From positions 62,001 to 126,000 of the forward strand of contig NZ_JAKNHJ010000004.1 of the NCBI RefSeq assembly GCF_022133705.1: a stretch of DNA of 64,000 nucleotides, written 5' to 3'. The notes under the pieces are model-generated. The model made no database searches. It had not been told where the DNA came from and was given only the letters and a program-made list of their open reading frames with translations. Both the position numbers and the translations under genes were made by a program. How positions within the stretch are numbered: position 1 is the first letter of the stretch; the number at the start of each line of letters is the position of its first letter. Shown here piece by piece: positions 23,444 through 53,691 of the stretch. The DNA is from Varibaculum cambriense. Lineage in GTDB: Bacteria; Actinomycetota; Actinomycetes; Actinomycetales; Actinomycetaceae.

Positions 23444-23460
23444 GCTTCCCTCCTTGCCAA

Positions 23461-48561: not shown

Positions 48562-48621
48562 TTTACGAGAGTTGGGGATACTCACAAACCGGAGGGCGAG
48601 GCTGCCCACTCCCCCGCTACA

Positions 48622-48713
48622 GCCAATCGTCGGAACAGATTAGCGCCAATCATCGGAACGAATTACAGCCAACCATCGGCCCAGAATGCCGCCAATCGTC
48701 GGAACGCGCTGGT
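48622..48713. repeat. Four direct repeats with an exact 23-bp period
   Basis: Units GCCAATCRTCGGAAC start at 48622, 48645, 48668 and 48691; the third has two changes at the end (GCCAACCATCGGCCC). The 8-nt linkers are partly alike (ATTA in two). The array lies 62 bp past the Zur-like box and 180 bp before the orphan antitoxin gene. The period is near two helical turns, so the sites face the same side of DNA. Function unknown. Confidence 0.85.
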
Positions 48714-49437: not shown

Positions 49438-49758
49438 TTAACCACCATTCATAAGTTTTTCAATATCCCGTTTCCCATAAAGAACACGGGAAATCACAAC
49501 TTCCTGCTTTCCTTCGCGAATAAAATAAAAAATAAGAAAATTATCGCACGCCATGATCCTTAAACCTCGACTTCTCCAGGGCTCAAAGCCAACTAAACGA
49601 TGCGCAAGAGGGAACTGATTAAGACCCAATATTGCTGTTTCTATCCTGTCTATTTGTCCTCTAGCATTTTTAGGTGACAATAAATTAAAGGTGATATATG
49701 CATAAATGCCACGTAAGTCCTCTTCTGCTTCATGTGATATGCAAACTGCATAGCTCAT
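49438..49758 (-). CDS. RelE/ParE-family toxin
   Basis: 106 aa. The family fold is visible in ISHEAEEDLRGIYAYI, then GLNQFPLAHRLVG and a C-terminal YFIREGKQEVVISRVLYGKRD. ParE toxins inhibit gyrase and RelE toxins cleave mRNA at the ribosome; the ISRVLYGKRD end suggests ParE-like. It overlaps the upstream antitoxin gene by 4 bp. Confidence 0.9.
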   Translation of the reverse strand: MSYAVCISHEAEEDLRGIYAYITFNLLSPKNARGQIDRIETAILGLNQFPLAHRLVGFEPWRSRGLRIMACDNFLIFYFIREGKQEVVISRVLYGKRDIEKLMNGG

Positions 49759-50060
49759 AAGCCAAATTCCCTGTGCAAAGATTCAAACACCTTATCCGCA
49801 GGCTTCACATCACCAGATAAAACCGACTTGTATCCCTTTTCTAACTCGCCATTCAACTCATCTTGAGTCATAGAACTTACATCACGCGGCTCTCTGTACC
49901 CCAATTTCACATCAAAAGGAAGCCCCTGTTGTAAAACCACCTGCTTATAAAACATGGTGATAGCACTAGAAGGAGGAAGACCCAAAGAATTCAATATATA
50001 CTCTGCCTGCTGTTTTAGTTCAGGATCAATACGCGTATACAAGTTAGCTGTTTTTGCCAT
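49755..50060 (-). CDS. RelB/DinJ-family antitoxin (partner of the ParE-type toxin)
   Basis: 101 aa. It opens MAKTANLYTRIDPELKQQAEYILNSLG, similar to the orphan antitoxin at 48897-49181. It lies upstream of the toxin gene with a 4-bp overlap, the usual antitoxin-first order. The promoter region 50061-50100 is AT-rich. Acts as antidote and probably autorepressor. Confidence 0.9.
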   Translation of the reverse strand: MAKTANLYTRIDPELKQQAEYILNSLGLPPSSAITMFYKQVVLQQGLPFDVKLGYREPRDVSSMTQDELNGELEKGYKSVLSGDVKPADKVFESLHREFGL

Positions 50061-50250: not shown

Positions 50251-50325
50251 CTAACCTCTCGACAGCAAAGCAACACACTCGAAATGGTGGGTATGGGGGA
50301 AGAGGTCGAAGGCCTGCAAGTCCGA
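50251..50325 (-). pseudogene. 3' remnant of a TrmA/RlmD-type rRNA methyltransferase gene
   Basis: On the minus strand the segment reads SDLQAFDLFPHTHHFECVALL then SRG and a TAG stop. FPHTHHxE near the end is the C-terminus of the uracil-C5 methyltransferase family. No catalytic body is upstream: the frame beyond 50350 does not resemble the family. It matches the C-terminal end of the intact gene at 52201-53691 in about 30 of 34 bases across the FPHTHH part. It may have come with a mobile element that uses the 3' end of this gene as its site. Confidence 0.7.
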
Positions 50326-50522
50326 AGGCGGGTTCTTGGAGTAGAGGCAGGTCGGCAGATCTTGAGGTGTTTCATTACGCACGTGAGATCAAAACAACCC
50401 GTTCAAATCACCAAAAAAATACCCCTACATCAGACAGTCTTACTGTATGCGCATCCCATGACGGCAGTTGATAAGAGAAATACCTGGTAAGCGCAGGATT
50501 CAAAATCTACTGAAACTGATTT

Positions 50523-51197
50523 TTACCGTTTGAGAGATTTTAAATAGTCTTTTTGTTTTGGTGTAATACGCTTACTTTCACGGGCTTTTTGTATCGCCTT
50601 ATTATGAGTCCATTTATCTAAGCGGTTCTCTTCAATATATTTAATGCTCGCTTCCCATTGCTTTGCCAAAGCAGTTGCAAAGAACCAGGCAATGCCCATT
50701 TGGACGTAATACTCTTCGCTATTAACAGAAGCGGGTATTTCCAGATATGCAGGACTAAAATCATCATCAAGAAAGTAAGACATTAGCACCTTAATGCCAA
50801 AGCGACAGGTATACGATTTATCCGATGTTGACCATTCTTTGACTTTCCCCAAAAGTGCTGTTTTATGCTTGTTGAAAATCTTTGGGGACAAGACATCGCA
50901 AACAGCCCAATTATCTACGTAAGGCAGAAACTGATCGACCGCTTTAATGCAGGCACCATAATCCCTGATTTCGGAAAGAAGTAGTCCGTGGAGAATGTTT
51001 TCGTCATAGTATTTATGCGGTAAATCGCGCAGAAATTGCGAGGATTTCCCTTCCTTGGCAAGCATTTTGGCAAGCTTTCTAGCCTGGGGAACTCTGACTC
51101 CTATAAACATCTCTCGAGGGATGTTCGGGATCAATCTCGCCTGAAAATCCGCATACGAAATATCCTGCAAGGCGAATAATTCTTCTTTTATATTCAC
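50523..51197 (-). CDS. DNA alkylation repair protein, AlkD-like
   Basis: 224 aa of the HEAT-like AlkD glycosylase fold. Recognisable parts are MFIGVRVPQARKLAKMLAKE, YYDENILHGLLLSEIRDY and WAVCDVLSPKIF, plus NKAIQKARESKRITPKQKDYLK at the end. Removes alkylated bases. It is AT-rich and Lys-rich compared with the core genes and more like a Firmicute gene, so probably acquired. GTG start. Confidence 0.88.
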   Translation of the reverse strand: MNIKEELFALQDISYADFQARLIPNIPREMFIGVRVPQARKLAKMLAKEGKSSQFLRDLPHKYYDENILHGLLLSEIRDYGACIKAVDQFLPYVDNWAVCDVLSPKIFNKHKTALLGKVKEWSTSDKSYTCRFGIKVLMSYFLDDDFSPAYLEIPASVNSEEYYVQMGIAWFFATALAKQWEASIKYIEENRLDKWTHNKAIQKARESKRITPKQKDYLKSLKR

Positions 51198-51508
51198 TTA
51201 CCCCATTCTCCAAACTATTTTACGTTACTGTTCAGCTATAGATTTTTGGCATTAAATATACACTCACCACATGGAATGACTGCAGCAAAAAAGTCGATTT
51301 TAGTGTTGATTGTTCGAAACATATCCTTAAGCCTTTTAATGATACATCGGCGCGATCATTAATACGTGCACTGCCTTCGGAGCCGGAGGTTACAGAATCC
51401 GTTCAGACAGTTTAAACCCTCTCTATCCGGTATCTTCGTAATACAACTCTTTGAGCTTTGGAAATTTATTTACCTATTCCTTATTATTTCCTTACACACG
51501 CGAAGGTA
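51198..51508. other. AT-rich intergenic stretch without a supported gene
   Basis: A 311-bp stretch between the AlkD-like and LOG-like genes. The longest minus-strand reading of note is 28 codons (MFRTINTKIDFF...), which I do not recognise. No hairpin, tRNA or repeat was seen. Confidence 0.5.
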
Positions 51509-52041
51509 TTAAAATTCTAGAATCCTTTTTATCTCGGCAAGATTTTCGGCAAAATAGATTCCCTCTTGGCGCTCTTTGGAGGAAAGTCCTTTTTCAATCA
51601 TATGATTCAGAAATGCTTTCAAATCGTCGTAGTAACCGTTGAGGTTATAAAGAATGCAGGGTGCATCCAGTTGTTTCAAAGACACCTTGGACATGACCTC
51701 CGCAATTTCTTCCAATGTTCCCGTGCCACCAGGGAAGGAGATAAAGGCGTCACCCAACGCAATCATTTTGTTTTTACGCTCTGTCATATCTTTCGTCACG
51801 ATTAACTTGGTTAATCCATCATGCTGAAATTCGTTTTCGATAAAACAATTGGGTTCAATACCTATTACTTCACCTCCAGCATTCAAAGCACTGTCCGCAA
51901 CGATACCCATCAGTCCGGATTTAGAGCCACCATAGATTAGCGAATTTCCGCTATTTCCAATCCACGAACCTAATTCCTCGACTTTTTTCTTAAGCATGGG
52001 TCATTCCCTTCATTTGCACCAAGATAAACGGTAATATTCAT
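51509..52041 (-). pseudogene. LOG-family phosphoribohydrolase-like gene with a frame break at an A_AAA_AAG heptamer
   Basis: Two frames together rebuild one LOG protein of about 177 aa. Frame 1 starts at ATG 52041 (MNITVYLGANEGNDP, the family opening) and hits TAG at 51970-51972. The body, ending at 51509, contains LIYGGSKSGLMG and the catalytic FPGGTGTLEE. They meet at AAAAAAG (51982-51988), which is read as A_AAA_AAG in frame 1; a -1 slip there gives RKK-VEELGSW with no missing residue. It is either a one-base contraction of the A-run, a sequencing error, or programmed -1 frameshifting. An internal ATG 51997 could give only an N-terminally truncated body. The region is AT-rich and Firmicute-like. 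Confidence 0.75.
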
Positions 52042-52200
52042 AAAAATTTTTGTCCTCAAATTCCGATTTGTTTCTTTTATGTGTTTTATAGCGCATTAGA
52101 TGAAAATTGCGTATACATCAACCTCAAATACACAATCCAACATCTGTCCAAGTCTGGATAGTTTTTAGAAGCCCCTTATTCTCAAGCCTTTCTATTCCAT

Positions 52201-53691
52201 TTAGCCCTTGGTCTTTACCATCAAGCAGACACTCTCCAGATGGTGGGTGTGGGGGAAAAGATCGTAGGCCTGCAAGGACGCGATCTGGTAGCCATGGGAT
52301 ACGGCGACTTTTAAGTCGCGGGCTAGAGCTGCCGGATCGCAAGCCACGTAGATAACCTTCTCCGGCTCTAGGCGCGTCAGCGCTGCCATCACTTTTTGTC
52401 CCGCGCCGCTACGCGGAGGATCCATCACTACCAGGGGCGACGCCTTCCTTTTGCCGCCATAGTCCGCAAGCGCCCGGGCATCCACCCTGCCGGCGCGAAT
52501 CTGTAGGCGTCCAGGCACTCCCGACAGGTTCTTGCGCGCCATTTTCACTGCCGGCTTTGACCCCTCCAAAGTTGTGAGGCGTCCTCCCCTGTCCAGAATG
52601 CTAGCTAGCGGACGCGAAAACAGCCCGGCACCCGAATACAGTTCCAGGACTTCTTTCCACCGTCGGTTCCCGGGTGTCAGCGGGCGGTCGCTACTAGCGT
52701 CTGCCTCGCTATGCTCGCTAGCCTCGGCACTCCCGCCTGCCGCGTCACTGCCAGCGTGTCCTTGCCCCACACCTGGAACAGAAAGTGTCCCGCTATCTAG
52801 CTCGTAGTCGCTGGTAGCCGCCGCCATTACTTGCTGGCCTAAAATCCGTGCCGCCTGGCGGTGCGCCTGCCAGAAACCGCTCGGTGCCACCAGGTAGTCC
52901 CCGAAACCGGGAACCGATAAACGCACATTCTTTTCTGCAACCGGCTGAGCTGATTCGTCAAAGAGGGCGTGCCCATTCCACACTCTCAGCCCGTTAGCAC
53001 TCGCCCAAGCCCGGATGCGCCCTCCGGGCGTAAAAACCTGGCTCCAACTGGCGGGGTCGCTAAACAAAGATGATTCGCTGATCACCGAATCTGCCAAGGG
53101 AAAACTGTCGATCTCTATCAGTTCTTCCCCGCGGAACTTAGTCATCGCCAAGCGCCCGGCAGCACTAACCTCAAAATCTGCGCGCAGACGATACCTCAAA
53201 CCGTCCTCGCCGCTCAGATCGTCCTCACCGCTAGGGTTATCCGCTCCCGCACCGCCCGCGGCTCCCGATGCCGAATATGCGTCCTGAGTACCCGCGCCCA
53301 CGCAGCCACTACTTACGCCTAGGCAGCTCAACTCTCCCCCGCTTACCGCTAATGCTTGCGCGTAAACTTCCTCTCCTCCTAGGCGTCGCAGGCAATCCGC
53401 CAACACCTCAGCTTTCCAGATGCGTTGGAACGGCACTTTCACGTGGCAAAGATCAGCCCCGCCACTTCCTCCCGGCCCGCCCAGAGCCCACACCGGCGTT
53501 TGCCGTTGCTCCGAAGCCTCAAGTACTTCGTTCACCTCGGCAAAAATAACTTTGCCTTTTTTAGCGACCGGGACAGCTTTTACCTGCTCTCCGGGCAGTC
53601 CGAAACGCACCATATAGGTCTGACCGTCCCGGTGCGCCAGGCAGTAACCGCCATGAACCGGACGCAATAGTTGCAAGGAAACTTCGCTCAT
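52201..53691 (-). CDS. TrmA/RlmD-family (uracil-C5) RNA methyltransferase
   Basis: 496 aa. An N-terminal TRAM-like region is followed by a methyltransferase with LELYSGAGLFSRPLA, VMDPPRSGAG, the catalytic Cys in IYVACDPAALARDL and a C-terminal LFPHTHHLESV. Two low-complexity stretches rich in Gly, Ser, Ala, Asp and Glu (residues about 135-170 and 300-335) interrupt the core, which is unusual. The position next to the APC permease matches Rv2689c-Rv2690c. Confidence 0.88.
   Translation of the reverse strand: MSEVSLQLLRPVHGGYCLAHRDGQTYMVRFGLPGEQVKAVPVAKKGKVIFAEVNEVLEASEQRQTPVWALGGPGGSGGADLCHVKVPFQRIWKAEVLADCLRRLGGEEVYAQALAVSGGELSCLGVSSGCVGAGTQDAYSASGAAGGAGADNPSGEDDLSGEDGLRYRLRADFEVSAAGRLAMTKFRGEELIEIDSFPLADSVISESSLFSDPASWSQVFTPGGRIRAWASANGLRVWNGHALFDESAQPVAEKNVRLSVPGFGDYLVAPSGFWQAHRQAARILGQQVMAAATSDYELDSGTLSVPGVGQGHAGSDAAGGSAEASEHSEADASSDRPLTPGNRRWKEVLELYSGAGLFSRPLASILDRGGRLTTLEGSKPAVKMARKNLSGVPGRLQIRAGRVDARALADYGGKRKASPLVVMDPPRSGAGQKVMAALTRLEPEKVIYVACDPAALARDLKVAVSHGYQIASLQAYDLFPHTHHLESVCLMVKTKG

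Follow-up and report, generated by a model that had tools for sequence, protein, structure and literature searches.

We find, with a probability that we put at about 0.88, that an acquired gene of the LOG family (TIGR00730) in Varibaculum cambriense has been put out of frame by one single-base difference in the region of codon 20. The gene lies in a stretch of 64,000 nucleotides (contig NZ_JAKNHJ010000004.1, positions 62,001 to 126,000), referred to here as the window. The A-rich heptamer at which the frame breaks would be a by-product of where the difference happened to fall and not a conserved signal. This is an ordinary case, an acquired gene that is one base out of frame.

A LOG-family gene split between two frames

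The coding strand of the gene is the minus strand of the window, a point that the initial annotation left unstated. The LOG-family N-terminus makes up the first 19 residues of the 23-codon upstream frame, and the downstream piece is read in the −1 frame relative to it (Table 1). When intact relatives were used as protein queries, nine of nine gave two colinear matches, one covering residues 1–19 and the other running from residue 15 onward one base back. Identity to these queries was 89–100% in the first match and 81–87% in the second, and 19 of 19 N-terminal residues were identical to those of L034, L035, L038 and L039 (E about 2e-8). A match of this quality puts the break in frame far beyond chance. 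These results bear out the initial annotation, which had placed the N-terminus in one frame and the remainder in the −1 frame, with the break at A_AAA_AAG in slippery phase. Since the two protein matches overlap by five residues (52000–51985), the protein comparison leaves the exact base of the break unfixed. In a DNA alignment with nine of the 80 relatives that we kept, the single one-base gap within the gene falls in the window sequence, at the end of the A-run.

As the sequence stands, ribosomes starting at the upstream ATG would stop after 23 codons, and the yield of functional protein is probably very low or nil. The putative ribosome-binding stretch in front of this ATG has counterparts in the relatives, where AGGAG/GGAGG-type stretches occupy the place of the GAGGA, as judged from the alignment and from the stretches upstream of the genes.

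Table 1. Positions of the features in the window
Feature	Position	Strand	Description
Upstream piece	51970..52041	minus	ATG at 52041; MNITVYLGANEGNDPCLRKKSRN (23 residues), with the last base of the stop codon at 51970
Downstream piece	51509..51997	minus	From internal ATG 51997, MLKKKVEELGSWIGNSG..., 162 aa, with PGGTGTLEE
A_AAA_AAG heptamer	51982..51988	minus	At the frame break; X_XXY_YYZ phase when read in the frame of the upstream piece
Probable ribosome-binding stretch (GAGGA) and spacer	52042..52059	minus	Precedes ATG 52041; predicted from sequence
DNA alkylation repair-like gene	50523..51197	minus	224 aa, GTG start, PF08713 match of 70.4 bits

Taken alone, the downstream piece scored 145 bits against TIGR00730 (cut-off 96.35), matching profile positions 17–172 of 178, and 127.6 bits against PF03641. 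It carries the PGGxGTxxE motif in the form PGGTGTLEE; the motif comparison covered 24 of the 80 relatives together with the window. Against the specific cytokinin-LOG equivalog it reached 94.9 bits, which is below the cut-off of 300, and we therefore assign no substrate to it. With its N-terminal β-strand and phosphate-contact position in the other frame, the gene as coded is a broken member of the LOG/TIGR00730 family. That family, of the cytokinin riboside 5'-monophosphate phosphoribohydrolase type (PDB 5its, 5zbj and 1t35), is the closest protein system, from which the window gene differs in that its N-terminal strand and phosphate loop lie in another frame than the catalytic part.

The break is private to one genome

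For comparison we kept the best 80 of 112 relatives found in the genome collection. Going by record titles, most belong to Clostridia and relatives, such as Kallipyga, Levyella, Murdochiella, Peptoniphilus, Lachnospiraceae and Faecalibacterium, or to Collinsella. The nearest were L033–L035, at 86–87% identity. The counts of the break, the heptamer and the junction residue cover all 80 loci. In each of the 80, one uninterrupted frame runs over the break site and joins the LOG N-terminus to the remainder, so that against all of them the window gene is shifted by one base. Among the window and these 80 homologues the frame break is private to one genome.

The heptamer was found in the slippery phase in none of the 80 relatives. 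Its letters occur within 30 nt of the site in two (L046 and L061), where the frame is intact and reads them as AAA AAA G. At the junction column 75 of the 80 carry Ala, four Ser and one Glu, and none carries the Lys that a slip on the heptamer would place there. The earlier statement that no residue is lost or duplicated across the heptamer accordingly stands for the length of the product but not for its content, as a slip would put Lys in the place of the Ala shared by those 75 relatives. This comparison settles most of the frameshifting question, and it carries a caution: a perfect slippery heptamer with no lost residue is, on its own, no evidence for programmed frameshifting.

The other possibility, raised at the outset on equal terms, contraction of a run of seven A to six, was right in kind in so far as an indel separates the window by one base from all 80 relatives. 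The proposed ancestor with seven A, however, finds no support. A run of seven A was absent from the site in all 80, and the longest run in the 30-nt region was 1 to 4 bases in 78 of them and 6 in the other two. Because 75 of the 80 have an Ala codon at the site, a history of one lost base and one substitution is no more complicated than contraction from seven to six.

Age and reality of the frame break

To gauge how long the frame has been broken, we compared the downstream piece with 11 of the 80 relatives, omitting its first few and last two codons. The dN/dS values were 0.043–0.087, as against 0.047–0.113 between intact relatives (pairs with L033 or L035, of which one was not computable). 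Since the values resemble those of intact pairs, the break is either recent, or an error, or compensated by some protein production. These ratios indicate that the downstream piece is a sequence under constraint for most of its history. Changes unique to the window lineage, in comparison with ten relatives, numbered 3, 2 and 3 at codon positions 1, 2 and 3; these counts were too few to be used and were dropped.

We then asked how the rest of the window behaves, in a synteny and frame-break comparison with four of the five genus relatives (G001, G002, G003 and G005). No strong frame break was seen across 54,244 bases (527 frames, four genus relatives). In a more permissive search, all nine control queries recovered the LOG break, and the 272 queries yielded three weak candidates, at 23455, 39669 and 59609, with second-piece E values of 0.003, 3.3 and 6.7; none of these lies beside a homopolymer longer than 3. 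The comparable 54,237 bases contain 46 runs of six or more identical bases, and the lack of a homopolymer break despite these 46 runs tips the balance slightly away from an assembly prone to such errors throughout and towards a real mutation. A single assembly error may nevertheless be compatible with otherwise clean homopolymers. Moreover, for unclustered singleton breaks that homologues span, the GeneTack survey expects sequencing errors in the main, and recent indels as the alternative (PMC3711429), an expectation that counts against weighting the case towards a real mutation. The window gene fits this class: like the frameshifted pseudogenes and singleton breaks described in those parts of the survey (PMC3711429), it has a one-base break in one genome with its homologues intact, and no difference from them was found. 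On balance we lean towards a difference that would be recent and real in the organism, and consider an assembly error rather unlikely, though by no means negligible.

Could the gene still be expressed?

The site has the appearance of programmed −1 frameshifting, in which ribosomes would slip on A_AAA_AAG and so set the proportion of full-length LOG protein. The heptamer found exactly at the break is among those most prone to slippage in bacteria and is in the correct phase, and a slip would restore the full family length. In parts of a review, the same heptamer is given as the natural shift site of Escherichia coli dnaX (PMC5009743), and with dnaX and the IS3/IS911-type transposases the window shares heptamer, phase and direction of shift. 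Unlike in those systems, the window heptamer is not conserved, with neither the break nor a heptamer in slippery phase in any of the 80 relatives, and it is accompanied by no clearly unusual stimulator, by a second lysine tRNA and by no useful short product. Folding downstream of the site was weakly favourable to a hairpin over 71 nt (z −1.58) and 51 nt (z −1.95), but the z-score was only −0.77 over 101 nt downstream and 0.04 over 110 nt around the site. When 31 of the 80 relatives were folded, 14 of these 31 intact genes folded as strongly or more so over the corresponding 71 nt, and ten of 31 did so over the first 50 nt downstream, so that folding after the heptamer lies within the range of intact relatives. 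A candidate for an upstream Shine–Dalgarno-like element is the AAGGG read 17 nt upstream of the heptamer, yet in intact relatives a similar stretch is conserved coding sequence. In addition, the organism's own genome has a tRNA-Lys(CUU) beside the UUU species: ARAGORN found both (ctt and ttt) among the loci caught by one anticodon-loop pattern, to which the scan was confined. In the E. coli case, according to the same parts of the review, high slippage is tied to a sole lysine tRNA, and Thermus thermophilus, with two lysine tRNAs, uses another mechanism (PMC5009743). The 23-residue peptide made without a slip has no evident use. Nor is AAAAAAG rare, there being eight copies on the two strands of the window; four of the eight fall within putative coding frames that run 600 bases or more from stop to stop, and two of these four are in the same slippery phase. 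On the grounds of conservation, folding and tRNA content we rejected programmed frameshifting as the best reading, and regard it as highly improbable.

The same heptamer might act without any evolved signal, if the A-rich site were leaky and the recent one-base difference were partly compensated. The right phase of the heptamer and the unrelaxed constraint downstream speak for such a rescue, as do precedents for corrective slippage at oligo-A: in the parts of the respective sources used here, slippage at an oligo-A stretch partly corrects a frameshift mutation of chloroplast atpB (PMC8254509), and translational correction of indels is described in the review (PMC5009743). Against it stand the tRNA-Lys(CUU), the shortness of the run of six A, the replacement of a nearly invariant Ala by Lys, and the fact that the constraint is equally well accounted for if the break is very young or erroneous. 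We consider this rescue unlikely, and think it quite unlikely that the chance difference amounts to a tolerated, low-output frameshifting gene giving some full-length LOG protein despite the second lysine tRNA; if true, it would exemplify how frameshifting sites can arise from chance indels. Our probabilities for the various readings are judgements and overlap, and leaky rescue could accompany a real mutation. Phase variation through changes in the length of the A-run would account for the one-base difference lying at that run. A run of six is, however, short for a phase-variable contingency tract, and it was the lack of a longer A-run at the site in the 80 relatives that led us to reject this explanation, which is exceedingly improbable. 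Finally, translation might begin at the in-frame internal ATG (position 51997), which has an AAGGG 8 nt upstream, to yield a functional protein of 162 residues. AlphaFold2 modelled this form with confidence (mean pLDDT 91.6, pTM 0.85), which gives no argument against its folding and to that extent runs counter to our reading that the form is dead, although such a score is no proof that the shortened protein folds. The form would lack the first 16 residues, including the strand at residues 2–6 in the model of intact L035. Besides P15, nine columns of the first 15 (M1, I3, T4, V5, Y6, L7, G8, A9 and G12) showed no variation in any of the 30 relatives, out of the 80, that were aligned. Position 9 aligns with Ser19 of Corynebacterium glutamicum LOG, a phosphate contact, and the LOG of Mycobacterium marinum has Ala at the position aligned with that Ser19. 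In one LOG study, changing phosphate-contact residues, Ser19 possibly among them, to alanine nearly abolished activity (PMC4979012). A functional product from the internal start is very unlikely, and loss of the frame by a one-base difference remains the preferred reading.

Origin and neighbourhood of the gene

A TIGR00730-type match was present in 55 of the 59 relatives' genomes searched. The five genus relatives each had one match, in every case only a distant homologue (26–28% identity), and the organism's own genome has one other, distant LOG-type copy, on contig C11 (27% identity). The DNA of the window gene, by contrast, is 82–84% identical to that of L033–L036 and L038, part of the leader included. 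Since the genus relatives have distant homologues only, the LOG gene was probably acquired horizontally, and the close matches point to clostridia-like bacteria as the probable donors. Copies close to it were not found on mobile elements: the 171 plasmid and 22 phage records matched were each below 60% identity, and carriage of a close copy by phage or plasmid was rejected. Among viral contigs there was no relative by protein (31 pattern matches, none confirmed), and the DNA pattern of the break site had no match.

The neighbouring alkylation repair-like gene (Table 1) also has a counterpart in one of the nearest relatives. The 680 bases from 50519 to 51198 are 78% identical to L033 (Kallipyga massiliensis), in which some 2.9 kb separate the alkylation repair-like match from the LOG gene. 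As the simplest reading, the two genes were probably acquired together from an L033-like source. In L033, frames of 728 and 130 residues (L033:4523-7305) lie between the LOG and alkylation-repair genes, which are adjacent in the window; these extra frames were either lost by the window or gained by L033.

A 48-base direct repeat (85% identity; 50273–50320 and 52229–52276) corresponds to the 3' end of an RlmD-like methyltransferase gene on the minus strand (52201–53691). The repeat flanks a segment of about 2 kb that holds the LOG and alkylation-repair genes, and resembles an attachment-site duplication; none of the frames listed at this segment stood out as an integrase. At the syntenic place in four of four genus relatives (G001, G002, G003 and G005), the stretch of the window at about 48.4–52.2 kb is mostly unmatched. 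In G003, a second fragment of the RlmD-like 3' end (L140:12734-12909) lies about 2.9 kb before the true one. By such comparisons, the variable region that follows the RlmD-like gene resembles an insertion hotspot. A pair of the ParE-toxin/RelB-antitoxin type (PF05016 and PF04221; 49438–50060) adjoins the acquired segment, and part of the pair (49602–49828) matches G003 at 86% within the insertion of that genome. At positions 48618–48706 a 43-base unit occurs three times with partial overlap, the copies being spaced 23 bases apart and 74–81% identical.
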